The position numbers were made by a program, and so were the translations under genes. A DNA stretch of 64,000 nt from Rhodoferax aquaticus (GTDB lineage Bacteria > Pseudomonadota > Gammaproteobacteria > Burkholderiales > Burkholderiaceae_C): NCBI RefSeq assembly GCF_006974105.1, contig NZ_CP036282.1:434001-498000 (forward strand). The letters are read 5' to 3'. Numbering within the stretch: the stretch's first letter is position 1; each line of letters opens with the position of its first letter. The notes under the pieces are model-generated. The model was given only the letters and a program-made list of their open reading frames with translations. It ran no database searches and had not been told where the DNA came from. Shown here piece after piece: positions 52,732 through 64,000 of the stretch.

Positions 52732-54624
52732 CTACTGGGTGAACGTGGCCTGGTATGAGTAATTGCCAGGGTTGAGCGAGTCGAATACGACGGAAGCCCT
52801 GTATTCGTCGATCCGAGAGACTTTAGGTAAGGGCAGTCCAATTTTGGTTGAACCGATGGTAGGGAGTAAGCCTTTTTGGGGGAGCATGATGACCAAGCTC
52901 CCGCCTTTGACGGGCTGTTGACCGGTCACGGTGATGTTGAACTCCAAGCGCTTGCTGCTGTTCTTGGAGGAGAGCTTGAAGCGGTCTCGTTCGCGCCACC
53001 AGTCCGTCACCTGGCCAGCCGAGGCAAACCACAACTGCGTCTTCCTTTGTTTGAGGTTGACGAGCAGACTGGGCATTGCCTTGGTCAACGCACTGTCTGG
53101 TCCAAAGTTTTGACTATGAATGCTGAGTAGCCCTAAAGAACCTGTATCTGCAGCCAAATTGGCATCGTCTACTAAGACCTTGGCAATCTGCTCGCTGCTG
53201 AGCTTCTCCCCATAGAGGTTAATGTCATCCCGCTGGGTGCGCGGGAGCACCACCAAACGGTCTTCGGGCTCAATATCTGGCATTTCCGCGAAAATGGGCA
53301 GGCGCGCTTCGGTGCGGTTGGGATCTGCTGTGTGGTGTCGGAACCCGTTTTTTTGCAGCAGGCGCTCGGTCGTCGCGTCGTACGCTTCGGTAGGCGCTCT
53401 GAAACCTGTCATGGTTTTTGCATTGGGAACTATAGGGGCGATGTCTGCCCGCATGTTACGTATGCGGTCCTCTTGTACATTTTCGGTTTGGTTCTTGAAG
53501 CCTGTGTGGGTGTCACCGTGAAACCCCAGTTCGAACTCTTTGGACAGGCGACTCACGATGTCAGGAAATGCTTTTCCTACCGAGGTTAGGATGTAAAACG
53601 TACTCGGGTAGTCCAGCGACTTCATCATGGCGGCAAAAGGGACCGCGTTTTCAAAACCTTGCTCCGTGTCCATGGCGATGATTTGGGCAGATTGTTTGCC
53701 ATTGGGCCAAGCGGACCGTACGATAGTGGGCTGCCGTTGTAGCCATTTGAGCGTGTCGTCGATCAGTGCGTAGGTTTCTTGAGGGTGAGATTCCCATGTG
53801 GACTCAGCAAAGGCAAACACCGCGGTGCGTCCTTGTGTGGGGTCTTGCTCTGCGTACAAAACAGCGCCTTCATCTCGCAGCCCGTCATCCGTGATCCGAG
53901 CCCAGTTCATGAAGCGGCCAGCGACCATATCGCCTTTGAAACGGAGCAAGGCCTCCGAGGTCTTGCTCATCAAGATACGCTGGCCTGCAGGAAGGGTGTG
54001 CGACACGGGGGATTCGCCATTCATGATGAGATGGTTGATGCCGCTATCGGGTGCGATTTCTCCGGTTGCCTTTGCGCCCAGCGATTCCATAAATGCCCAA
54101 CCTTCCCATTCTCCTCGGCTATTGCGTGTGCCTGTCGCCCAAGTGGCCAAAACAGCCCCCCCGCGTAAGCGAAATGCCGCGATCTCCGCGCGTTCATCAG
54201 GCCCCAATGACAATGCTGAAGGAAGAATGAGGACCCCTTCTTTTTGCTTGCGCAGTTGGGCTGCGTCGCTCACCTCTTTGAAGTCGACTTTATGGGCAGC
54301 AAAGTAGTTGCGCCATGGCACCACCAGTACTTCGTACTTGCCACCTATTCCATCGAAATAGGTCTTGGTATTGGGCGAGGTGTACAGCACCACGGTGTCG
54401 CTGCTGCTTGCAATATACGAAAGTGCGCCTTGGATACCAAAGCTAGGCGTGCGCCAGCCCATGATCTGCATGACGGTGAGATAGATCAACGCGGGCAAGC
54501 CAAACCCCAGCACGATGTACACGTGCAAGTAGGGACCAAAGCGCTTAAAAAAAGGACGCGGTCTGCGGTTGTCTACGAAATTTGGCGCGTCTATTCCATC
54601 AGCCGTGGCGGACCTAGGTTTCAT
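52732..54624 (-). CDS. Membrane-anchored polysaccharide deacetylase-like protein
   Basis: A 630-residue protein with a cytoplasmic N-terminus, one TM segment (about 33-54, VYIVLGFGLPALIYLTVMQI) and a large periplasmic part. About 75-300 resembles a Rossmann/GATase-like domain (GVLILPSALSLGPDERAEIA, RLRGGAVLATWATG). About 310-560 is a NodB-type deacetylase with D319 in IAMDTEQG and the metal pair H369/H373 in GFHGDTHTGF. The end, after GQVTDWWRERDRF, is beta-rich. The overall shape parallels PgaB-like de-N-acetylases with different accessory domains. Last gene of a five-gene operon; its ATG overlaps the upstream stop. A paralogue at 59892 lacks the histidines. Substrate inferred to be the polymer made by the neighbouring synthase. 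Confidence 0.82.
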   Translation of the reverse strand: MKPRSATADGIDAPNFVDNRRPRPFFKRFGPYLHVYIVLGFGLPALIYLTVMQIMGWRTPSFGIQGALSYIASSSDTVVLYTSPNTKTYFDGIGGKYEVLVVPWRNYFAAHKVDFKEVSDAAQLRKQKEGVLILPSALSLGPDERAEIAAFRLRGGAVLATWATGTRNSRGEWEGWAFMESLGAKATGEIAPDSGINHLIMNGESPVSHTLPAGQRILMSKTSEALLRFKGDMVAGRFMNWARITDDGLRDEGAVLYAEQDPTQGRTAVFAFAESTWESHPQETYALIDDTLKWLQRQPTIVRSAWPNGKQSAQIIAMDTEQGFENAVPFAAMMKSLDYPSTFYILTSVGKAFPDIVSRLSKEFELGFHGDTHTGFKNQTENVQEDRIRNMRADIAPIVPNAKTMTGFRAPTEAYDATTERLLQKNGFRHHTADPNRTEARLPIFAEMPDIEPEDRLVVLPRTQRDDINLYGEKLSSEQIAKVLVDDANLAADTGSLGLLSIHSQNFGPDSALTKAMPSLLVNLKQRKTQLWFASAGQVTDWWRERDRFKLSSKNSSKRLEFNITVTGQQPVKGGSLVIMLPQKGLLPTIGSTKIGLPLPKVSRIDEYRASVVFDSLNPGNYSYQATFTQ

Positions 54625-54842
54625 GGCTGCTCAGGGGGAGTGGGTGGGACTGCTTGCGGTACGTAGCGATTGAGGAAAACGGGCTCCTTCTTACCCGTGT
54701 CATCGAGGGTGTCGTCGGCTTTCTTCTTGTTGGGCTTACGTTTGTCACGCAGTTTGAAGGCGTAGTAGGCGCCTACCCCAATGACCATCGTGCCGATGGT
54801 CGTTACCAAGATAACGGTTGCTAGTATTGATACAAGATCCAT
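54621..54842 (-). CDS. Small membrane protein between synthase and deacetylase genes
   Basis: The 73-aa product has one TM helix near the N-terminus (ILATVILVTTIGTMVIGVGA), a basic stretch (KLRDKRKPNKKK), and a Pro-rich acidic tail ending PPTPPEQP. It starts 1 base after the synthase stop and overlaps the deacetylase start (ATGA), so it is surely translated with both. By position it could be the small partner of the synthase, as PgaD is for PgaC, but sequence similarity is not evident. Confidence 0.75.
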   Translation of the reverse strand: MDLVSILATVILVTTIGTMVIGVGAYYAFKLRDKRKPNKKKADDTLDDTGKKEPVFLNRYVPQAVPPTPPEQP

Positions 54843-54843
54843 G

Positions 54844-56199
54844 TCAGAGTTTTCCTTCTCGCTCGAGTTTTCCCCAGGTCATGGCTTTGCCGCGCCATTC
54901 CTCGATCGTGGCAAAAACTTTTGAAACGTCAATAATGTTGATGTAAAAAAGTCTAAACATAACGGCATAAAAGATCAGTTCGGGCTCTTCTTCCTCAATC
55001 ACCACGCAATAGGCTGCCGCTACGACATCCAGTACCGTCAGCTGCAGCCACCAATAAAACAGCAGGGTTGCCAATCCGTACTGAATACCCACGTAAGCAA
55101 AGAAAAGGTTGCCTAGCATGGTTGAGAAAGGCCACATGATCCCTTCGAAAAGCATGAACCACAGGATAAAGCAGTTAATTCCGGCTTTGCGGGGTTGCCA
55201 AAGTGCGTGGCTGTGCTTGCTAGTGGCTTGCAAAATACCGCGGGTCCAACGGTAACGTTGTTTCAGCAAGTCCAGCAGGCGGCTAGGCGTCTCCACCCAG
55301 GCTATAGCGCTGGGTTCATAGGCGATGTGCCAGCCATGCATCAGCATTTTGAGGGTGAGGTCACAGTCTTCGGCAAACGTGTCATGGTCGTAGCCGCCTA
55401 CTTGCTGCAACACCGACTTGCGAAACATCCCCAGCGGCCCCGGAATGATGTTGACGATGCGCAGAAAGCTCTGCGCCTTGCGGGCCATGGCCAAACCTTC
55501 CACATACTCAAGCGCTTGGATATTGGTGAGCATGTTCTCGCGGTTAATCACTTTCACGTTGCCTGCTACAGCACCAATTTTGGGGTTGTCAAAGTGCCGA
55601 ATGCACACCCGCAAGGTGTTGCGCGATAGCTTGGAGTCGCCGTCCATGTTGAGAATGAATTCGCCGCGTGCAGCAGTCATTCCAGTGTTGAGTGCTTCTG
55701 CTTTTCCGCCGTTTCGCTTGGTAATGACGCGAACGGGAATGTCATTCTGTTCTCGGGCTACCTCAAGCGCTTTTTCATACGTGTCGTCCGTAGATCCATC
55801 GTCCACCACCACAATTTCGAAATTGGGATAGTCCAGTTCCAGCAAGGAGCGGATGGCTGCCTGAATGACGATACCTTCGTTGTAAGCGGGCACCACCAGA
55901 GTAACCATGGGCAGTGAACTGTCTTCACGCGGCAAGGCCACGGGTGCTGTGCGCCGTTCAAACAAGGTTTCCAAATGGTCCATGAACGAATAGAAGATCA
56001 TGATTCCGTATCGGATCACCAGAAGCACCAGGAACGCCAGCAGGTAAAACGTGACGGCAGACAGCACGTAACTCTCTAGCAGGACCGCAAACGACCCTTT
56101 CGCCTCCGTGACGGATTGGTAGCTATACCCCAGCACAGCTACAACTGCGAGTACTGCCAGGGCAGCCCACAGGTAGCGAGAGATTTGTTTGCTTACCAA
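54844..56199 (-). CDS. Processive family 2 glycosyltransferase, exopolysaccharide synthase
   Basis: Inner membrane synthase of 451 residues: two N-terminal TM segments (about 10-30 and 47-72), a cytoplasmic GT2 domain, and three or more C-terminal TM segments (about 340-420). The catalytic motifs are complete: DDG (133-135), DGD (186-188), EDCD (277-280) and QRYRW (314-318). Segments KRNGGKAEALNTGM and GPLGMFRKSVLQQVGGYD are close to PgaC/hyaluronan-synthase types. No PilZ domain is attached, unlike BcsA. Its start overlaps the TPR/outer membrane protein gene by 7 bases. Likely builds a beta-linked polymer and exports it; N-acetylglucosamine is a guess based on PgaC resemblance and the deacetylases nearby. 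Confidence 0.92.
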   Translation of the reverse strand: MVSKQISRYLWAALAVLAVVAVLGYSYQSVTEAKGSFAVLLESYVLSAVTFYLLAFLVLLVIRYGIMIFYSFMDHLETLFERRTAPVALPREDSSLPMVTLVVPAYNEGIVIQAAIRSLLELDYPNFEIVVVDDGSTDDTYEKALEVAREQNDIPVRVITKRNGGKAEALNTGMTAARGEFILNMDGDSKLSRNTLRVCIRHFDNPKIGAVAGNVKVINRENMLTNIQALEYVEGLAMARKAQSFLRIVNIIPGPLGMFRKSVLQQVGGYDHDTFAEDCDLTLKMLMHGWHIAYEPSAIAWVETPSRLLDLLKQRYRWTRGILQATSKHSHALWQPRKAGINCFILWFMLFEGIMWPFSTMLGNLFFAYVGIQYGLATLLFYWWLQLTVLDVVAAAYCVVIEEEEPELIFYAVMFRLFYINIIDVSKVFATIEEWRGKAMTWGKLEREGKL

Positions 56200-57644
56200 A
56201 GTTTCTCCACGGTCACATTGGCACTTTGTGAGCGGTAGGTGGCACTATCTCGCCAGCTCGACATCGCCCACAGGTTCATGCTGAGTGCAATGTCCGATGT
56301 GATCCAGCGTTTTCCGCCTGCAGACGCCGCCCAACCCGAACCTGCGTCGCCGTAAATTGGCATGGAGAGTTGGGCTGAGGCATACAGACTCCAATCCGCC
56401 ACGCCCCATTCACCGAGCAAACCTCCGTAAAGTGTTCCTGAGCCATTGATGGGGGACCAGTAATTGCTGGTATTGAACGTTGCAGTTCTGTTTTCTGCGC
56501 CAATAAACGGTTTGACGTTGTTTCCTACAGGTCGCCATGAGGAGTTGAGTTGCACATTGGCAGTCCAAATCCGGTTGGAGTCTGAGATAGAGTACAGATC
56601 AACCCTCGCTGAAACATCGCCGAATGGGTAGTTTCTGCGAGAGCCAGCACCAATGCGCGATGCCCCCAAGTTGGCAGCCAAACCATCGGGGTTGACGGTG
56701 GTTTTGCTCCAGTTGATGTAGCCGAAATCTAGTGTTTCTTGGGCATCGTTGAAGCTTAAGCGCACACCACCATACAGCGAGCGGTCGGCCTTGGTAGGCA
56801 TGCTGATTTCAAAGCTGGGCTTTAGCTCAAGGCCCAAAGCTTGGTAGCGAAAGGTTACATCGCGTTGGTCTGTTTGGTTCTCGTCTTTCCAGTTGCGAAC
56901 GCCACTGGTCTCAACTTCCATGACATTCATGGTGCTTTCATCACGCCACCGATGGTTGAGGGTGGCGACTCGGCTTTCGATGACGGATGAGTCCTTAGTT
57001 CCGCCGAAAGTGAGTGATGTCTTGGGCCGCAATTCACGTTCGGCTTGGGCTAAGCCGACTATCGCGTCGGTACTGTTGGGTTCGGTGGCAAGTACCGCAC
57101 GAAACATGGGAGCCGCTTTTTCGGGGTTGCCCCGCCAGTTTTCTATGTTGGCCAAACCAATATTGGCCGCATTGGCAAGTTCGCCTTTGGTAAGCTTTTC
57201 ATAGGCAGGTATGGCTTGTTTTAGCTGTCCTGTCCATGCCAAACTGTTGGCGATGATGAGTTGTAGCGCATCGTCTGCTTTTTCGTTTTTTAGCAGTTCC
57301 ACCCCGACTTGGCTCGCGGCTTTGTAGTTGCCCGCGTTGCTGAGGTCTACGACCCGCTGTTGTGTGGCGCTGCGTTTGGGGCCGCTGGGTTCCTCGGCGC
57401 TTTGTACTTCGACTGCGGTGTTTCCTGGAGGTGGAACGTATTTGAATGGTGCAATTTGTAAAGCACTTCCGACCGGGGTAGTAACGCTTTGGCGGTTCAG
57501 CAAGGAACTTGGCAAAGTATCTCCACCCTGCGCGAAACCAGTCAACGGTAGGCAAACGAGGCCAAGTGCACACGCAATTTCACGTTGGGTGTAGCGGTGG
57601 TGCTTGTGTGTTGGATGCCCCTGCAGGTGATAAATTTTGGACAT
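56193..57644 (-). CDS. TPR/beta-barrel outer membrane exopolysaccharide exporter
   Basis: A 483-residue exported protein with signal peptide (ACALGLVCLPLTGFAQ, cleavage near GFAQ). A short TPR-like region (about 95-210: AGNYKAASQVGVELLKNEKA, WRGNPEKAAPMFRAVLATEP) is followed by a beta-rich C-terminal half of alternating strands ending VTVEKLW; a terminal aromatic residue is typical of outer membrane barrels. This TPR-plus-barrel plan is that of PgaA and BcsC, but the TPR part is much shorter (two to three repeats). It overlaps the synthase gene. Role as the outer membrane exit is inferred. Confidence 0.8.
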   Translation of the reverse strand: MSKIYHLQGHPTHKHHRYTQREIACALGLVCLPLTGFAQGGDTLPSSLLNRQSVTTPVGSALQIAPFKYVPPPGNTAVEVQSAEEPSGPKRSATQQRVVDLSNAGNYKAASQVGVELLKNEKADDALQLIIANSLAWTGQLKQAIPAYEKLTKGELANAANIGLANIENWRGNPEKAAPMFRAVLATEPNSTDAIVGLAQAERELRPKTSLTFGGTKDSSVIESRVATLNHRWRDESTMNVMEVETSGVRNWKDENQTDQRDVTFRYQALGLELKPSFEISMPTKADRSLYGGVRLSFNDAQETLDFGYINWSKTTVNPDGLAANLGASRIGAGSRRNYPFGDVSARVDLYSISDSNRIWTANVQLNSSWRPVGNNVKPFIGAENRTATFNTSNYWSPINGSGTLYGGLLGEWGVADWSLYASAQLSMPIYGDAGSGWAASAGGKRWITSDIALSMNLWAMSSWRDSATYRSQSANVTVEKLW

Positions 57645-57666
57645 AGGTCGTTGCGGAAGTTGCTGT

Positions 57667-57686
57667 CATTGGCAGAAAAGCCAATG
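57667..57686. promoter_or_regulatory. Hairpin upstream of the exporter gene
   Basis: CATTGGC and GCCAATG flank a 6-base loop, 23 bases before the ATG at 57644, in the 122-base gap after the BcsE-like gene. It may modulate transcription read-through or translation of the four downstream genes. No T-run makes a plain terminator unlikely. Confidence 0.35.
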
Positions 57687-57766
57687 GATTAGATGAATGG
57701 AGGCAGGATGGTGATAGGTCTAAGTGACCCTTGCAGCAATTGTTGCATGGACATTGGTTGCAAGTT

Positions 57767-59722
57767 TCAGTGGCGGATGTTGACACCCAGGAAGCTAGTA
57801 CCCTCTGTCGCTTCGCTGCCGTGGGGACTCTGGGGTCTCGCGATTGAACTGCGCTTGGCCCGAGGTGCAGAATGTCGGCCGAACGAAGTTGCCTGCCCAA
57901 GTGTGTCTGGCTTGGCATTTGTGGAGGTGGCTTCCTCCCTTGTCCACTCGCCATCTGTCAAAACATGGGGCGACTCCGGGGGGATGTAACGAAGGTCAGA
58001 GACGTCGGACCGGGGACTTGTTGGTGCGGGCGCTGTTGTCGCCGACACACCATTGCCCATAGGGGCTGTCGAGAGTTTGTCCAAGTACACGTGCGAAGGT
58101 GTGGGTTGCTGTACGTTTGGCACCGATGAGCCTGTAGCAGGTAATGCGGCAACCCAAGTGCGAGAAATCTCGGTGTAGTCCGGAACTGAACCCAGTGCAG
58201 CGCTGCGCGTCATAGCTGCCAGTTCAGTGTTGATTTCATCGCGATGCACCAAAAATTTGACGTCTGCGAATACGGTATCTATTGCGCCATGTACGATGCG
58301 CTCCACCGTCGCCAGTAACACGGATTGCGGGCAAGCATTCAAGAAAATGAAGCATTCAGATTCACTAGCCGTTGATAAGTCACCTGGTCTTGACAGGGCG
58401 ATATTCCCCAACAGGTCTTCCATTGGTGTATCGGGTAGAGGGGTGCCAATAATCAAGGCACAGGGAATATCTAGCGTGGCGGAACGTTTGAAAATAGTTT
58501 CAACCTCGCGCACAAAATGGGTGGGCATCAAATACCCTCGAAGCATCGTCGGCACCACACTCGCAAGGGCTGCCTCAAAGTTAATGTCTACGTTTCGGTT
58601 GAAGACTTGGCCTCGAATGGATTCAAGTAGCAAAGTTAGGCGCGATGTCGGTACATCGCGGTGAATGACCAGATTCACGCCTAGACGTAGGAGCAGAGCT
58701 TCATTCTGATAGCGCAAAGATGCTCCTTTCTCTTGGACAACAAGGAGGGCTTTGCGACCTAGGGTAAGGCGGAGGGTGTGAATGGCCTCCGCAAGTTGGC
58801 GTAGATTGGTGTCATGCTGAAAGCTCAAAATGCATGTGGCGGTGGGCAGGTTCCTGCTGGCATGCATCATGCCGATTAGCGTGTCTGCGTATTGCCATCC
58901 GCCCGGTGTGAGTTTTGCCAATGATCCCAAATCGGGATCCATGTAAAAAACCCGGGCACTCGCCGTGTCCGGTGCGTCAGTGCGGCTGCTTGGTTCTGAC
59001 TCCGATACAAGTTCGAGCGGCGTTGATTTTGTGCTGGCTTGGTACAAACCCAGCTCATCAGTGAGCAAAATATAGTGCCTAGCAGCAATAGCACCTTCCG
59101 GAGACTGCCAATAGTCAAAGGTTAACTCCAATCCATCTTTGTCACCCCCTAAACGGGCAATGCCAGACAAGTTGTCCATGATGGCGTTGATGGTTCCCGC
59201 GTTAGCCTCTGTAACCCTAGAGAAAACCAATAGCGCGGTAATTCGCCTTTGTGCAAACCACTTCCCAAGAACGCTAATTTGCTCCAACGCCAAAGAAATG
59301 TCGTGCAGGCTGAGCAACTCATCGGCTTGGTCAAATATGAGGTAGCTATTCTCGGGAATTCCGAACTCTTCCATCTCCTCTGCAAAAGCGTCGGCCCCAA
59401 AGCGGAACATGGCTTTTGAGAATTCGTTTTGCATGACAAAAAGCTGAAGGCTCTTATTCGCGATCAAAGTCACGGCGTCCAAAGGCACAAAGGAATCAAT
59501 GCGCTGGATAAACTGCTCTGGGTTGGCGGGCACTATCACGGTGCACGGCAAGCCTTGCTCAAGGGCGCTGGAAAGACTGGCTGCGAGTAAAGGAAAGCGC
59601 GCCGATGGGGTCTCTGCTACAAGCACATAGGCTCCGCCAATCGTCATGCTGTCGGTGAGATTTGGCAGGCCGCTAACGCCAACGCGGACAACGGGAATAT
59701 TCGGCGCAGCGGGGTCGGTCAT
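57767..59722 (-). CDS. BcsE-like c-di-GMP-binding protein
   Basis: Soluble protein of 651 residues resembling cellulose-synthesis regulator BcsE. About 1-235 looks like its degenerate RecA/NTPase-type domain (SMTIGGAYVLVAETP, IFDQADELL). About 255-380 matches its receiver-like domain (EALLLRLGVNLVIHRDVPTS, LLLESIRGQVFNRN). About 395-510 matches the GIL domain, with the c-di-GMP I-site-type motif RPGD at 445-448 where E. coli BcsE has RTGD. The last 130 residues are Ser/Pro-rich and probably disordered. It is the first gene of the minus-strand operon, with no BcsA or PilZ protein visible. Likely the c-di-GMP input for the synthase. Similarity was judged by eye. Confidence 0.8.
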   Translation of the reverse strand: MTDPAAPNIPVVRVGVSGLPNLTDSMTIGGAYVLVAETPSARFPLLAASLSSALEQGLPCTVIVPANPEQFIQRIDSFVPLDAVTLIANKSLQLFVMQNEFSKAMFRFGADAFAEEMEEFGIPENSYLIFDQADELLSLHDISLALEQISVLGKWFAQRRITALLVFSRVTEANAGTINAIMDNLSGIARLGGDKDGLELTFDYWQSPEGAIAARHYILLTDELGLYQASTKSTPLELVSESEPSSRTDAPDTASARVFYMDPDLGSLAKLTPGGWQYADTLIGMMHASRNLPTATCILSFQHDTNLRQLAEAIHTLRLTLGRKALLVVQEKGASLRYQNEALLLRLGVNLVIHRDVPTSRLTLLLESIRGQVFNRNVDINFEAALASVVPTMLRGYLMPTHFVREVETIFKRSATLDIPCALIIGTPLPDTPMEDLLGNIALSRPGDLSTASESECFIFLNACPQSVLLATVERIVHGAIDTVFADVKFLVHRDEINTELAAMTRSAALGSVPDYTEISRTWVAALPATGSSVPNVQQPTPSHVYLDKLSTAPMGNGVSATTAPAPTSPRSDVSDLRYIPPESPHVLTDGEWTREEATSTNAKPDTLGQATSFGRHSAPRAKRSSIARPQSPHGSEATEGTSFLGVNIRH

Positions 59723-59891
59723 AATGGTATAGCCAAGTAAATTTGCAAATTGTTACAATTTATTTTAATCACATTTAACCTGCTTTGGTCGGATTATGCA
59801 GTTTGCTATATTGCGTCTTCAAGAACGATGTCACAAAACTGCGGGTTCCTTTTACATGTTTTGTAGCTTAAGTTCATTAACGGCCCAAGGC
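59723..59891. promoter_or_regulatory. AT-rich divergent promoter region of the exopolysaccharide operons
   Basis: This 169-base gap between the BcsE-like gene and the divergent lipoprotein gene is clearly more AT-rich than its surroundings (59737-59780). It contains a perfect 12-base palindrome AATTTGCAAATT at 59740-59751, 18 bases before the BcsE-like ATG. On the plus strand TTTGGT and TATATT, 17 bases apart (59784-59812), could be a sigma-70-type promoter. Both operons are probably controlled here. Confidence 0.5.
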
Positions 59892-61880
59892 ATGCGGGTC
59901 ACAATGTTGGGTCTGCTGATAGGGGTGACGCTGTTATCCGGATGTTCTACCCCTAAAAAAGCGGAGCCTAGTAAATCTGAGCAGGCGAAGGTGGAACCGG
60001 CTAAACAGGGACCTGTGCCACTGGTAGACATCCCTCCGCCAGGTTTCTTTGTTCCTACTGGCTTCTTTTTAAAGGCGGCGATTGACCCCAAGCAAGCCTT
60101 GAGCACGCCAGCAACGGTTAGCACCGCTCCCAAAATCGCAACTACTTCTAACGTGGCGGTACCCGTATTCAAAGGAAGCTTTACCCAAGTAGTAACGCTG
60201 TACGCATCTGCCAGCAACAAGGCATACTTTGCGAAAGCAGGCTTGGATGCCACTACCAATGCGCGCGCATGGGAAGTACTTTTGCGAAAGTACAAAATTC
60301 CGTATAAGCAGCTGACCACTATAGAACAACTTGAAAAGGCACCCCTAGGCGTCCTCTTGCTGCCAAGTGCGGCGGCGTTGTCAGAGGCCGAGCGAAAAGC
60401 CATTGCTGCCTACAGAGAGCAGGGCGGGAGTGTGCTCAGCACCTGGCTAACAGGTGTGCGTAGTGATCAAGGTACTTGGCTAGGTTTTGAGTTCATGGAG
60501 TCCACGTTGGGTGTCAAAGTAGTGGGCACCACAGAACCGGCTGCTGATGATGGGTTCATGATCATGCATGGCAGTACCCCGGTGAGTCACACCCTGCCAG
60601 CTGGTTTAAGGGTATGGCTGGAGAGGGTAAAGGGTTGGTATCCCTTGTCCCTAGTGGGAAAAAATGCAGCCGCCAACATGATGCCTTGGTCGCGTACGTT
60701 TGTCCCAGATAAACCAAGTTCTGTGATTACTTATGACGAACGTGCGCAAGCCAGTGGCGCGCGTTCTCGCTCTGTCGTTCTAGGGTACCCAGAGCGTCTT
60801 TGGCAGACAGCTGACCCTAAAGTGCTCGAGGCCATAGCGCATAACGCGTTGATGTGGCTACTTCGCCAGCCCGATGCGTACTTGTCCCCTTGGCCGGCCC
60901 CCTACACCAGTGCTTTCGTAACGGGGGTTGATTCTGCTGATGTCTTGGTTAGTGGAGATGTGGCTTTTGCCAAGCGGTTAGAGGATGTAGGCGGTCGTGC
61001 GAGCTATTACTTGTTGACAGATCCAGTCGCCAAATCGGTTGAAACCGCCAAGAAACTGCAGTCCAAGGGGCATGAGCTAGCCTATCTCGCCGATAAATTT
61101 GAGGGATTCCAAGGCCAGACCGCTGCCGTTCAGATGCGGCGTCTAGAGGCTATGCAGAAGAAGCTGGGCGATGTAGGTCTGGACACTGGGGTGGCTCCGG
61201 GCTTTCGTCCTCCTATGGGTTCGGCGGATGCAACCACTCAAAAAGTCGCAGCCGATAAAGGCTTTGGTCATTACATTGGCAATTCAGCGGATACAGAGAC
61301 ACGACTGCCCTTTGTCATTGGCTCTGCGGAAGGATCTTCAAAATCCTTGGTGGGCATACCGAATACACAGACCGGTCCTGAAGAATGGTTAGATGATCCA
61401 GATGCGGAAGACGGACTCCAAGCGTTTTTGGATGAGCTGGCTCTTTCGCTTCAAATGGGGGGAGTTTCATTTGTCAGATTCTCAAATCAAACTCTGCTGG
61501 CACCAGATCAACTGGACGCAATTTTTGACTACCTGAAAGAGCAGAAGACGCGTACTTGGATGGCTAGTGGCGGTCAAGTGGCCGATTGGTGGCGAGAGCG
61601 CGAACGGCTGAGTGCGCGCTTGAACTCAGGTCCCGTGGCTCCGATACTTTCAGTTGCAGTAAGCGCTGGATTGCCCCTCAAAAATCCTGTATCGATACTT
61701 GTCAATGCCCCCGACACTAGTAGTTCGCTGCGATTAGTTTCTGTGGGCTCCAACGTTCCGGTACCAAGGCTGTTGAAGTTGGACAGTTGGCGCTCAGCAG
61801 TGATAATCGACGGCTTAGCGCCCGGGATGTATCAGTGGTATGTCTACTTTGATAAGGCGACCGGCAGTACCGCCAAATGA
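59892..61880 (+). CDS. Lipoprotein deacetylase paralogue lacking metal-binding histidines
   Basis: From the ATG at 59892 (MRVTMLGLLIGVTLLSGCST) the 662-residue product is a lipoprotein with lipobox Cys 18 and a low-complexity KPE-rich linker. The rest aligns along its length with the deacetylase at 52732-54624: GVLLLPSAAALSEAERKAIA, STPVSHTLPAGLRVW, and GQVADWWRERERL. The first catalytic Asp is kept (D347 in TGVDSAD). The HxxxH pair is replaced: H369 and H373 align to L399 and F403 in ELAYLADKF. It is thus probably a non-catalytic, polymer-binding paralogue in the periplasm or outer membrane. First gene of the plus-strand operon; ATGs farther upstream (59796, 59856) are possible. Confidence 0.8.
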   Translation: MRVTMLGLLIGVTLLSGCSTPKKAEPSKSEQAKVEPAKQGPVPLVDIPPPGFFVPTGFFLKAAIDPKQALSTPATVSTAPKIATTSNVAVPVFKGSFTQVVTLYASASNKAYFAKAGLDATTNARAWEVLLRKYKIPYKQLTTIEQLEKAPLGVLLLPSAAALSEAERKAIAAYREQGGSVLSTWLTGVRSDQGTWLGFEFMESTLGVKVVGTTEPAADDGFMIMHGSTPVSHTLPAGLRVWLERVKGWYPLSLVGKNAAANMMPWSRTFVPDKPSSVITYDERAQASGARSRSVVLGYPERLWQTADPKVLEAIAHNALMWLLRQPDAYLSPWPAPYTSAFVTGVDSADVLVSGDVAFAKRLEDVGGRASYYLLTDPVAKSVETAKKLQSKGHELAYLADKFEGFQGQTAAVQMRRLEAMQKKLGDVGLDTGVAPGFRPPMGSADATTQKVAADKGFGHYIGNSADTETRLPFVIGSAEGSSKSLVGIPNTQTGPEEWLDDPDAEDGLQAFLDELALSLQMGGVSFVRFSNQTLLAPDQLDAIFDYLKEQKTRTWMASGGQVADWWRERERLSARLNSGPVAPILSVAVSAGLPLKNPVSILVNAPDTSSSLRLVSVGSNVPVPRLLKLDSWRSAVIIDGLAPGMYQWYVYFDKATGSTAK

Positions 61881-61902
61881 TTTTTTTCCACCTGTACCCC
61901 CT

Positions 61903-62616
61903 ATGAAAAACCTCCATACTGTCAGTTTGATTCTGCGTACCGCCTTGGTTTCCTTCGTTTCTGTGGGGGCACTGCTTGCGTTTGCGCAACCCGCAGGAAC
62001 GCTCTACGACCCTGAGCCACCCGCCGATTCCGCCTACGTCAGGGTGCTGCACAGTGTCAAGGGCGCTGCCGCTATTGATGTTGTCGTCGATGGAAAAGCC
62101 CGCGCAACCAAGTTGAACTTTGGCCAAGTCGGTGACTACATGGTGCTCAGTGCTGGCAAGCACACTATTGCTTTGCATCCAGCATCTAAAGACTCCGCGT
62201 TGGTAACTTTTGGGTTAGACGTAGTGCGTGGCAAATCGTTGACGCTGAGCTTTCCTGCACATAAGACTGGCACGGTGCCGATAGTGTTTGAAGATAAATC
62301 AAGCACGAACAAGTTGAAGGCCATGCTCACGGTATACCAGTTAGATGCCCAAACACCATCAGTCGATGTGATGACGGCCGATGGCAACACCAAAGTCTTT
62401 AGTGCCTTGGGGTACGGAACTTCGATGGCGATACAGGTCAATCCGATCGCGGTTGAACTAGTTGCCGCTAAAGCTGGCGACAAGCAAGCAAAAACCAAGG
62501 TTCCCTTAGAGATGGCCCAAGGAGGTGCGTACAGTGTTTTCTTGATGTCCGATGGCGCAGGCAAGATGACGTCTATCCATGTGCAAAACAAGACCGAGGT
62601 TTACACCGGTAAGTAG
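61903..62616 (+). CDS. AlgF-like polysaccharide O-acetylation protein
   Basis: Exported protein of 237 residues, signal peptide ending near ALLAFAQ. The mature start AGTLYDPEPPADSAYVRVLH matches the characteristic opening of AlgF. Two beta-rich domains follow (about 35-130 and 135-237), as in AlgF. AlgF takes part in O-acetylation of alginate in the periplasm with AlgI, AlgJ and AlgX. The gene lies 22 bases after the lipoprotein gene and 60 bases before an AlgJ/AlgX-like gene. No AlgI-type acyl carrier is visible in the window; it would be expected beyond the right edge. Confidence 0.8.
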   Translation: MKNLHTVSLILRTALVSFVSVGALLAFAQPAGTLYDPEPPADSAYVRVLHSVKGAAAIDVVVDGKARATKLNFGQVGDYMVLSAGKHTIALHPASKDSALVTFGLDVVRGKSLTLSFPAHKTGTVPIVFEDKSSTNKLKAMLTVYQLDAQTPSVDVMTADGNTKVFSALGYGTSMAIQVNPIAVELVAAKAGDKQAKTKVPLEMAQGGAYSVFLMSDGAGKMTSIHVQNKTEVYTGK

Positions 62617-62676
62617 TCCATCACACTAGACCACTAAAATTGATCTAAACCTTCTTTACGCCCTCTCAAGGACACT

Positions 62677-63678
62677 ATGAAAACAAGTCGCTTTAAGCAT
62701 TTTTTGCGCTCCACGGTGCTCGGTTTCGCCGTTGGAGTGATGTCAGCGCACGCCGCAGACAGCGTGCCCGTTTTGTTTGGCAAGGACGAATGGTTGTTCA
62801 CTCCCTATGAGTTTGCAACGCCTGCTGATGCCCAAGATACCTCCGCTACGCTTCAGTTGCTGCAAAGTGCCAACAAGCTGTTTGAGCGTAAGGGCGTAGC
62901 ACTGGCACTGGTCATCGTGCCTTCAAAAATACGCATCCACGCGGATAAGTTGCCTGTAGACAAACCACTTGATGCGTACACCAATGAAAAATATGACAAC
63001 GCGGTCAAAGCGTTGCGTAGCGGCGGTGTCAACGTGGTGAATTTGAACGAGGCTTTTCTCAAGAGTCCACATCGCACCAGTGATACGCCATTATTTTTGC
63101 GCCTGGATACACACTGGTCGCCTTCTGGCGCCATGTTAGCTGCAGAAACGGTTAGATCGTTGATTGACGCCACTCCAGCACTCAAAGCAGCATTAGCTGC
63201 TACAAAAGAAGAGCAATATGCTTTGGCGTGGAATGCAAGAAAGATCAATACCCGAGCTCGAGACTTGGTCCGCTATTTGCCAGAAGGTTCTGCGAATTAC
63301 GCCCCTGAGCAAGTGTTGCCATTCAAGGTTAGCCGTGTCCAAGCGTCACAGGCGGATCTACTAAACGGTGGGGAGAACGTAGGAATTACCGTCATTGGCA
63401 GCAGCTACACCAACAAAGCGACGGGTTATCCTGATGGTTTGCGCTTCACGCTCCAAAGAGACTTATTGGACATTTCTTTGCCAGTGGATCAAGGGCCTTG
63501 GTTCGGCATGGAGTCATATCTCAAAGATGAGGCGTTTAAGACAAGGCAGCCAAAGCTGATCATTTGGGAAATCCCAGAGCGTGAATTACGCTCCCCTCCA
63601 AACAACAAATTCCGTGACCCTCGTTACATCATGGATAACGCTGCATGGTTGCAGAAGATCACTGACTTGCTCAAGTAA
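62677..63678 (+). CDS. AlgJ/AlgX-like SGNH acetyltransferase
   Basis: Exported protein of 333 residues with signal peptide (LRSTVLGFAVGVMSAHAA). The SGNH-type catalytic set is visible: D144 and H146 in RLDTHWSPSG, and the nucleophile S243 in VIGSSYTNK, followed by PKLIIWEIPERELRS near the end. DxHW plus a G-T/S-S-Y motif is the signature of AlgJ/AlgX and WssI-type polysaccharide O-acetyltransferases. There is no additional carbohydrate-binding domain, so it is closer to AlgJ in length. It acts in the periplasm, presumably on the polymer made by this locus. Confidence 0.87.
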   Translation: MKTSRFKHFLRSTVLGFAVGVMSAHAADSVPVLFGKDEWLFTPYEFATPADAQDTSATLQLLQSANKLFERKGVALALVIVPSKIRIHADKLPVDKPLDAYTNEKYDNAVKALRSGGVNVVNLNEAFLKSPHRTSDTPLFLRLDTHWSPSGAMLAAETVRSLIDATPALKAALAATKEEQYALAWNARKINTRARDLVRYLPEGSANYAPEQVLPFKVSRVQASQADLLNGGENVGITVIGSSYTNKATGYPDGLRFTLQRDLLDISLPVDQGPWFGMESYLKDEAFKTRQPKLIIWEIPERELRSPPNNKFRDPRYIMDNAAWLQKITDLLK

Positions 63679-63722
63679 TTCCGCTGCCCATCGGGTGTTG
63701 CTCAGCAAATAACACCCAACTC

Positions 63723-63752
63723 AAAAGCCAGCGCTGTTTCGCGCTGGCTTTT
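63723..63752. terminator. Bidirectional Rho-independent terminator
   Basis: AAAAGCCAGCGC and GCGCTGGCTTTT form a 12-base stem with loop TGTTTC, ending in a T-run on the plus strand and, through the A4 arm, on the minus strand. It lies between two convergent AlgJ/AlgX-like genes. A second stem (GGGTGTT/AACACCC, 63693-63717) precedes it. Confidence 0.88.
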
Positions 63753-64000
63753 TCATTTCTGCGTGAGTCCGACGTCTTGCACCCATGTATTTTCTTTTTC
63801 AAGTTTGCTGTACAAAAAGCGTTCGGGTACTTCCCACACGATGAGCTTGGGCTTGTTTTGTTTAAAGGAATCATCCCCAAAGTAGGTGGTGGCCGCTTGT
63901 AGGAAACCACCACCTTCCTTGGCTGCATTCAAGACTTTAAGAGACAGGGCTTCTTGTAAGTACCCAGCAAAGTTGCCTCGCATCGAATAGGACGTCCCAA
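63753..64000 (-). CDS. Second AlgJ/AlgX-like protein, C-terminal part only
   Basis: The reading frame enters from the right edge with GTSYSMRGNFAGYLQEAL, where the Ser of GTSYS corresponds to the catalytic nucleophile of AlgJ/AlgX. It continues to KPKLIVWEVPERFLYSKLEK and ends VGLTQK. About 82 codons are visible; the N-terminus and the DxHW motif lie outside. The Met at 63983 is internal and not the real start. The stop codon abuts the bidirectional terminator. The gene is convergent with the first AlgJ/AlgX-like gene, so a further operon of the acetylation machinery is expected to the right. Confidence 0.85.
   Translation of the reverse strand, partial: GTSYSMRGNFAGYLQEALSLKVLNAAKEGGGFLQAATTYFGDDSFKQNKPKLIVWEVPERFLYSKLEKENTWVQDVGLTQK

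Follow-up and report, generated by a model that had tools for sequence, protein, structure and literature searches.

A conserved exopolysaccharide locus in Rhodoferax aquaticus joins a PgaC-like synthase to cellulose-synthesis genes with a degenerate BcsA

The window analyzed here is a 64,000-nucleotide stretch of the genome of Rhodoferax aquaticus (positions 434001-498000 of a single contig of 4.74 Mb). At its right end lie genes of a putative exopolysaccharide system with a PgaC-like family-2 glycosyltransferase (GT2). The original prediction had placed a hybrid of Pga-, Bcs- and Alg-like parts at 52732-64000, but this stretch is only the left half of the locus, which continues past the end of the window to 74522. 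The other half contains Bcs genes, among them a degenerate BcsA homologue named BcsA*. The features of the locus are listed below; coordinates above 64000 are the window numbering carried on into the adjoining genome.

52732-54624, minus strand: DeaA, membrane-anchored polysaccharide de-N-acetylase (PF01522)
54844-56199, minus strand: PgaC-like GT2 processive synthase, motifs intact (PF13641, TIGR03937)
56193-57644, minus strand: short TPR protein ending in W, probable outer-membrane barrel/export porin (TPR_14)
57767-59722, minus strand: BcsE with I-site-like RPGD, candidate cyclic di-GMP (c-di-GMP) sensor (PF10995)
59796-61880, plus strand: DeaB, lipoprotein paralogue of DeaA that has lost the metal site of deacetylases (PF01522)
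61840-62616, plus strand: AlgF-like protein with DUF4397 (PF11182, PF14344)
62677-63678, plus strand: AlgX1, AlgX/AlgJ-like SGNH acetyltransferase 1 (PF16822)
63753-64898, minus strand: AlgX2, AlgX/AlgJ-like protein 2, with the window edge inside the gene (PF16822)
64902-66287, minus strand: AlgI (PF03062)
66352-67149, minus strand: BcsQ1 (TIGR03371)
67170-67850, minus strand: short TPR protein of 226 amino acids (aa)
67863-70337, minus strand: BcsB (PF03170)
70280-72436, minus strand: BcsA*, degenerate BcsA homologue of 718 aa (TIGR03030, below cut-off)
72433-73197, minus strand: BcsQ2 (TIGR03371)
73194-74033, minus strand: BcsP-like protein (position and weak match)
74061-74522, minus strand: BcsD

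The left minus-strand run is transcribed in the order BcsE, TPR-barrel protein, GT2 and DeaA, and the plus-strand run comprises DeaB, the AlgF-like protein and AlgX1. The right minus-strand run starts at 74522 and proceeds downward through BcsD, BcsP-like, BcsQ2, BcsA*, BcsB, the short TPR protein, BcsQ1, AlgI and AlgX2. Within the window, the geometry is the predicted one of two divergent runs plus a convergent gene. All predicted parts were found in place with Pfam matches, including the synthase motifs, the RPGD of BcsE and the terminal W of the porin, and the gene content agrees with a Pga/Bcs/Alg hybrid. An AlgI-type gene, anticipated to the right of 64000, is indeed the next gene there.

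The GT2 matched PF13641 (126.2 bits) and holds the motifs DDG, DGD, EDCD and QRYRW. Among 29 distinct proteins, QRYRW and DGD are present in all and DDG and EDCD in 28 each; copies in five other family genomes share 72-79% identity with it. The nearest NCBIfam model was PgaC/IcaA (TIGR03937), with a score of 226.6 bits that did not reach the cut-off of 422.3. An N-terminal EpsE-like domain was not seen in the Pfam search. The neighboring TPR protein (TPR_14, 32.1 bits) ends in W in 29/29 distinct proteins and is probably an outer-membrane barrel and export porin; it scored 22.9 bits against the PgaA model, below the cut-off of 366.65. BcsE matched PF10995 with 254.2 bits (cut-off 25) and the NCBIfam equivalog with 185.1 bits, short of the cut-off of 244.65. 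Its RPGD motif recurs as RxGD in all 21 distinct BcsE proteins.

Both predicted deacetylases match PF01522, DeaA with 38.9 bits and DeaB at the border with 23.2 bits (cut-off 23.1), but DeaB is without metal-binding histidines and DeaA has a PelA-like rather than a PgaB-like build. DeaA (630 aa) consists of a transmembrane helix, a GH42-M/GATase-like domain, a CE4/NodB domain and a small C-terminal beta domain. Its AlphaFold2 model had a confidence score (pLDDT) of 86.8, and both large domains gave fold matches, including to PelA, with which the two-domain build is shared. After the deacetylase domain, the model shows only the small beta domain and no PgaB-like second enzyme (hydrolase) domain. 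The first Foldseek row for DeaA was human NDST1, from which we drew no claim (root-mean-square deviation [rmsd], 12.3). In the beta- and gammaproteobacterial rows, MDTE and the LxxH histidine are conserved in 20/20 proteins and HxxxH in 19/20; the DeaA at L066:11701-13476 retains MDTE and has lost both HxxxH histidines. In the 12 aligned DeaB proteins, the second histidine of HxxxH and the histidine of LxIH are lost throughout, and the first histidine of HxxxH in 11. From these alignments, DeaB looks like a pseudo-deacetylase.

Four genes point to O-acetylation. The AlgF-like protein matched PF11182 (55 bits, cut-off 34.4) and, overlapping with it, DUF4397 (PF14344, 71.9 bits). AlgX1 matched PF16822 with 187.5 bits, and its DxHW and GSSx motifs are present in 24/24 distinct proteins. 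AlgX2, which is full length in the genome, reached 252.6 bits with the same family, and the gene next to it encodes AlgI (PF03062, 119.3 bits).

The prediction had named BcsE as the Bcs share of the locus. This part held, but BcsE is not alone, as BcsA*, BcsB, two BcsQ, BcsP-like and BcsD follow to the right of the window edge. BcsB matched PF03170 with 685.4 bits, and the two different BcsQ proteins scored 195.3 and 228.9 bits against TIGR03371, both above the cut-off of 157.85; many relatives also have two BcsQ. The BcsP-like protein was assigned from its place in the run and from a weak match of 14.9 bits (cut-off 55). BcsA* scored 162.7 bits against TIGR03030, for which the cut-off is 699.1, and no Pfam family matched it at E ≤ 1. 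It aligns to Escherichia coli BcsA in two stretches, N- and C-terminal, with 127 bits.

In cellulose synthesis, chain formation and transport through the inner membrane are both the work of one protein, BcsA. In BcsA* of R. aquaticus, the DDG, DxD, TED, QxxRW and PilZ motifs are all gone. A TIGR03030 search of 33 GT2-bearing genomes (L070 lay outside it) gave matches at E ≤ 1e-20 in 29, of which 14 were over the cut-off, and many of these genomes yielded full-length, low-scoring BcsA homologues. We read BcsA* in 17 genomes (the own genome G000, G083, G121, G130, G399-G406, G410-G412, G415 and G417; G407 represents the contig and match already counted as G083). In the alignment, neither TED nor QxxRW is kept in any of the 17, and NFP stands in all 17 at the PilZ site, where canonical PilZ has [DN]xSxxG. 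All motifs are present in the 11 canonical BcsAs of the same alignment. Two BcsA-like proteins fall outside both counts: G425C10 has every motif, and G417C119 lacks PilZ and QxxRW. An alignment-free search found Q..RW, [TS]ED[AL] and [LVI]DDG in no BcsA*. Decay of BcsA within one genome was rejected, since 17 genomes share the motif loss. In Undibacterium (L139, L140), the open frame that holds the canonical BcsA is 1510-1514 aa long and may be a BcsB fusion.

The left part of the locus is conserved elsewhere, as the prediction required: BcsE, porin, GT2 and DeaA occur in this order in 20 of the 26 loci with at least 58% GT2 identity (L052-L076 and L080). Four of the exceptions (L060, L062, L065 and L074) end at a contig edge, and L075 and L080 have no visible DeaA. 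Named loci among the close GT2 relatives belong mainly to Comamonadaceae, Rhodoferax, Polaromonas and other Burkholderiales. On the Bcs side, the usual order is D-P-Q2-A*-B-(TPR)-Q1. AlgI and AlgX2 follow Q1 in 9/17 genomes (own, G083, G130, G401, G402, G403, G404, G405 and G415), with a GH18 gene in between in several of them; the remaining BcsA* clusters are cut or arranged differently. The cluster TPR protein has 139-287 aa in seven genomes (own, G130, G401, G402, G404, G405 and G415) and about 900 aa in G417 and G400; BLASTP gave no match in the other eight, where some clusters are cut. BcsZ had no match in any BcsA* cluster read, and the own cluster contains no cellulase family according to Pfam and no BLASTP match to the BcsZ of a relative.

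A GH18 of one subfamily was found in 18/29 GT2-positive genomes and in 3/399 genomes of the family sample, all three GT2-positive. GH18 enzymes use the N-acetyl group of their substrate, and the co-occurrence hints at a polymer of the N-acetylhexosamine type.

Is BcsA* a gene on its way out? The locus might hold two unrelated neighbors, a Pga/Pel-like GT2 system that works and a cellulose operon that is dying, with a decayed BcsA. The absence of a BcsZ match, BcsC matches that are mostly short or missing, and uneven motif retention resembling gradual decay (DxD in 6/17) would fit, as would the faster evolution of BcsA* than of its neighbors. In four pairs, the ratio of nonsynonymous to synonymous substitution rates (dN/dS, NG86) was 0.25, 0.19, 0.22 and 0.27 for BcsA*, compared with 0.10, 0.07, 0.05 and 0.10 for BcsB and 0.09, 0.02, 0.04 and 0.09 for the GT2; dS exceeds 1 in three of these pairs, which leaves the first (dS 0.15) as the reliable one. 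BcsQ2 gave 0.08, 0.07 and 0.11 (three pairs) and canonical BcsA 0.13 (one pair). These low ratios, all well below 1, indicate that BcsA* is under purifying selection, weaker than that on the partner genes. Further, the frame is full length in 16/17 genomes (the G083 gene is cut at a contig end, with its first 155 residues on another contig), all 17 share the new NFP, the proteins form one clade, BcsB, BcsQ, BcsP and BcsD are retained, and BcsA* in the family sample is confined to GT2-positive genomes (see below). We therefore consider a dying operon improbable.

The origin of BcsA* was addressed with a tree of 49 BcsA proteins, from which G083 and P0003 (close to P0002) were left out. The 18 BcsA* proteins form one clade (SH-aLRT 100), which shows their common descent. 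This clade joins, again with 100, the canonical BcsAs of G405, G412, G415, G416 (Gallionella) and G418 (Silanimonas), whose bcs genes adjoin the GT2 module. The clade persisted without five long rows (16 rows, 100); this was a quick tree with long BcsA* branches, and a more careful search was unfinished. Both BcsA forms occur together in G405, G412 and G415. The sister position to GT2-linked canonical BcsAs and the coexistence of both forms in three genomes suggest a single duplication of the bcs core beside the GT2 module, after which catalysis, BcsZ and the greater part of BcsC were lost.

In the family sample of 399 genomes, the GT2 (counted at E ≤ 1e-80) was present in six. A BcsA* profile found some BcsA in 56 family genomes and BcsA* proper, defined by 754-883 bits (at most 558 for others) or by the split G083 gene, in four (G000, G083, G121 and G130). 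All four are among the six GT2-positive genomes (Fisher p 1.4e-8, kinship ignored) and belong to four genera. Of the other two, the G291 assembly has a completeness of 58%, and G012 carries a canonical BcsA. The sequences behind the profile came from GT2-positive genomes, G121 not among them. When the own BcsA* served as single query against 250 genomes, G121 and G130 were the only others with a full-length match, and the match in G083 was partial. As controls, 51 GT2-negative family genomes with a BcsA-type match were used; motifs were read in 17 and found intact, and the other 34 were judged by score. A control set of seven low or split matches had the motifs in 7/7 (G150 over two overlapping frames, G016 in a shortened frame), and a set of 13 had a QxRW-type motif and TED in 13/13; two genomes and one further locus are common to both sets.

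The genomes also differ in whether an active cellulose synthase accompanies BcsA*. A canonical BcsA over the TIGR03030 cut-off is present in 5/17 (G405, G411, G412, G415 and G417). The other 12, including the own complete genome, have none over the cut-off; G000 and G121 are single-contig genomes, and several of the 12 are incomplete metagenome-assembled genomes (MAGs). In these 12, the GT2 is thus the only evident active synthase for BcsB, BcsQ, BcsP and BcsD. This bears on a regulatory role, in which BcsA* would lie outside the GT2 export complex and compete with or damp intact synthases, or sense another ligand at the NFP site. The five genomes with both forms and the change of the PilZ site to a conserved NFP speak for such a role, but 12 genomes offer no canonical BcsA over the cut-off as a target, and BcsB, BcsD and BcsQ are kept alongside. 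We regard a regulator as unlikely.

Comparison with known systems showed partial likeness only, and two proteins scanned against PHROGs had no match. As in Bcs systems (type I/II mixed; E. coli Bcs macrocomplex), BcsB, BcsQ, BcsD, BcsE and a BcsP-like protein are encoded in one locus, but BcsA is without catalytic motifs and the PilZ c-di-GMP motif, no BcsZ was found, a GT2 is added, and a 226-aa TPR protein stands at the site of the relatives' BcsC. The GT2 nearest to PgaC/IcaA, the de-N-acetylase and the TPR protein recall the Pga/Ica poly-N-acetylglucosamine systems, although the PgaC and PgaA cut-offs were missed, DeaA has no second hydrolase domain, and Bcs and Alg parts are added. Unlike in Pel, DeaA is without a PelA-type hydrolase domain and the synthase is a GT2 instead of PelF. 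BcsB-like proteins are paired with a non-BcsA GT2 in the sfz/sfb/xag stalk clusters, according to parts of PMC8250860 and PMC4643136. The sfz/sfb stalk cluster of iron oxidizers was rejected as an identity for the locus, since in those accounts BcsB goes with a GT2 protein that carries an EpsE-like domain; the same portions do not name BcsE, BcsQ, AlgI or a deacetylase for sfz. Our searches of open-licence PMC papers, with subscription papers outside their scope, found no description of such a system, in line with the original prediction, which could name no system with this set.

The Wss system for acetylated cellulose, as outlined in a part of PMC7112194, also combines Bcs genes with AlgI, AlgX/J and AlgF-like genes. 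R. aquaticus could likewise make acetylated cellulose, with the GT2 adding only a side sugar or a second polymer, and there are relatives, G405, G416 and G418 among them, that carry intact BcsA, BcsZ and BcsC. However, the active cellulose synthase (WssB/BcsA) is absent here and a GT2 and a de-N-acetylase are found instead; the own genome has no BcsA over the cut-off, and its BcsA* is without catalytic motifs. Acetylated cellulose suits the relatives with intact BcsA better and is very improbable as the product of this locus. In Polynucleobacter rarus (L145), AlgI and AlgX2 homologues precede a canonical bcs cluster, which may be an acetylated cellulose locus.

More distant settings were also noted. 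In Calditrichota and Ignavibacteriales (L077-L079), a GT2 lies near a degenerate DeaA. The MAGs L077 and L078 carry, in one run, a KaiC-like ATPase, a TPR protein, the GT2, a small membrane protein and the degenerate DeaA, which parallels the order BcsE-porin-GT2-DeaA; L077 has an extra frame ahead of the GT2. The C terminus of the L077 ATPase gave a weak, below-cut-off GGDEF match (17.9 bits), and BLASTP of BcsE against the L078 ATPase gave no meaningful match (20.4 bits, E 0.15). The frames that border the R. aquaticus locus are presumably ssb to the left and mnmA to the right. Further right (L003:16092-20000) are genes that resemble those for phage portals and heads, a putative assignment.

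Taken together, we consider it about an even call that the locus encodes a conserved, so far unnamed synthase-dependent exopolysaccharide system, in which a GT2 polymer is handled by a Bcs chassis with BcsA* as scaffold and BcsE as input. The sequences themselves show which genes are there and that they are conserved, as well as the missing motifs of BcsA*, the purifying selection on it and its common descent. The sugar, the cooperation of BcsA* with the GT2 and the role of each protein are inferred as follows. The GT2 would polymerize an N-acetylhexosamine, probably N-acetylglucosamine, and start its export. BcsA*, BcsB, BcsD, BcsP and the two BcsQ would form a Bcs-type inner-membrane platform that organizes or translocates, with BcsA*, devoid of catalysis and PilZ c-di-GMP binding, as scaffold or translocation partner. 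The TPR-barrel protein would export the chain, DeaA would remove N-acetyl groups to leave a partly de-N-acetylated polymer, DeaB would be a polymer binder that does not cut, and O-acetyl groups would be added by AlgI together with AlgX1, AlgX2 and AlgF.

The predicted control by c-di-GMP is possible through BcsE in view of RxGD in 21/21 proteins, and the PilZ motif of BcsA* is lost. With that site gone, BcsE is the remaining candidate and, judged by its motif, likely the c-di-GMP sensor of the system; it would take over the input from the PilZ domain. As reported in a section of PMC11470070, E. coli BcsE can hold the activating partners in place at the synthase when BcsA has no c-di-GMP bound. 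The same section describes BcsP modelled as a BcsR-like plug of the synthase, which may explain the retention of BcsP.

Several observations weigh against the shared-chassis reading. Residual motifs persist in BcsA*: DxD in six of the 17 (G130, G400, G402, G404, G405 and G406), DD of DDG in four, and the first Asp of DDG (D208 in the own protein) in 16. The nearly invariant D208 and the remaining DxD would suit a neofunctionalized glycosyltransferase with another active site; however, alignment A1, with 15 BcsA* (partial G083 and G121 left out), shows no invariant acidic pair in place of DxD or TED, the own BcsA* has no DxD, and we give this idea very little credence. The structure model of BcsA* (P0001 and ten relatives) was weak (pLDDT 59.7), and the first Foldseek rank of E. 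coli BcsA (TMq 0.58, rmsd 11.1) backs a common fold only. Other genomes (G012, G416, G418 and more) combine the GT2 module with an intact BcsA and have no BcsA*, showing that the GT2 does not need BcsA*. In G121, the Bcs and GT2 clusters are about 53 kb apart, and AlgI was not seen in the stretches read. GH18 is absent from the own genome and from 10 of the other 28 GT2-positive genomes. Finally, the association test is blind to kinship, even though four genera are involved, and many relatives are MAGs.

A more specific version of the shared-chassis reading is a chimera of two synthases, which we hold tentatively, somewhat short of an even chance. Here, the clade of dead BcsAs would be a non-catalytic translocation and assembly subunit for an unrelated PgaC-like synthase, and the whole Bcs machine, once devoted to cellulose, would now serve a hexosamine polymer that is partly deacetylated and O-acetylated. 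It would have arisen in a locus with an active BcsA beside the GT2, by duplication of the bcs core and the death of one BcsA.

The unexpected part lay outside the window: dead cellulose synthases that form a conserved clade and are linked to a different synthase. The results suggest a cellulose factory rebuilt for another biofilm polymer. If this is true, a conserved non-catalytic BcsA together with BcsB and cytosolic partners would set catalysis apart from the scaffold and export functions of BcsA, and would provide a natural test of how BcsB, BcsQ, BcsP, BcsD and BcsE function when no cellulose is made. In environmental betaproteobacteria, a chitosan-like or poly-N-acetylglucosamine-like acetylated polymer could also be obtained from the locus.

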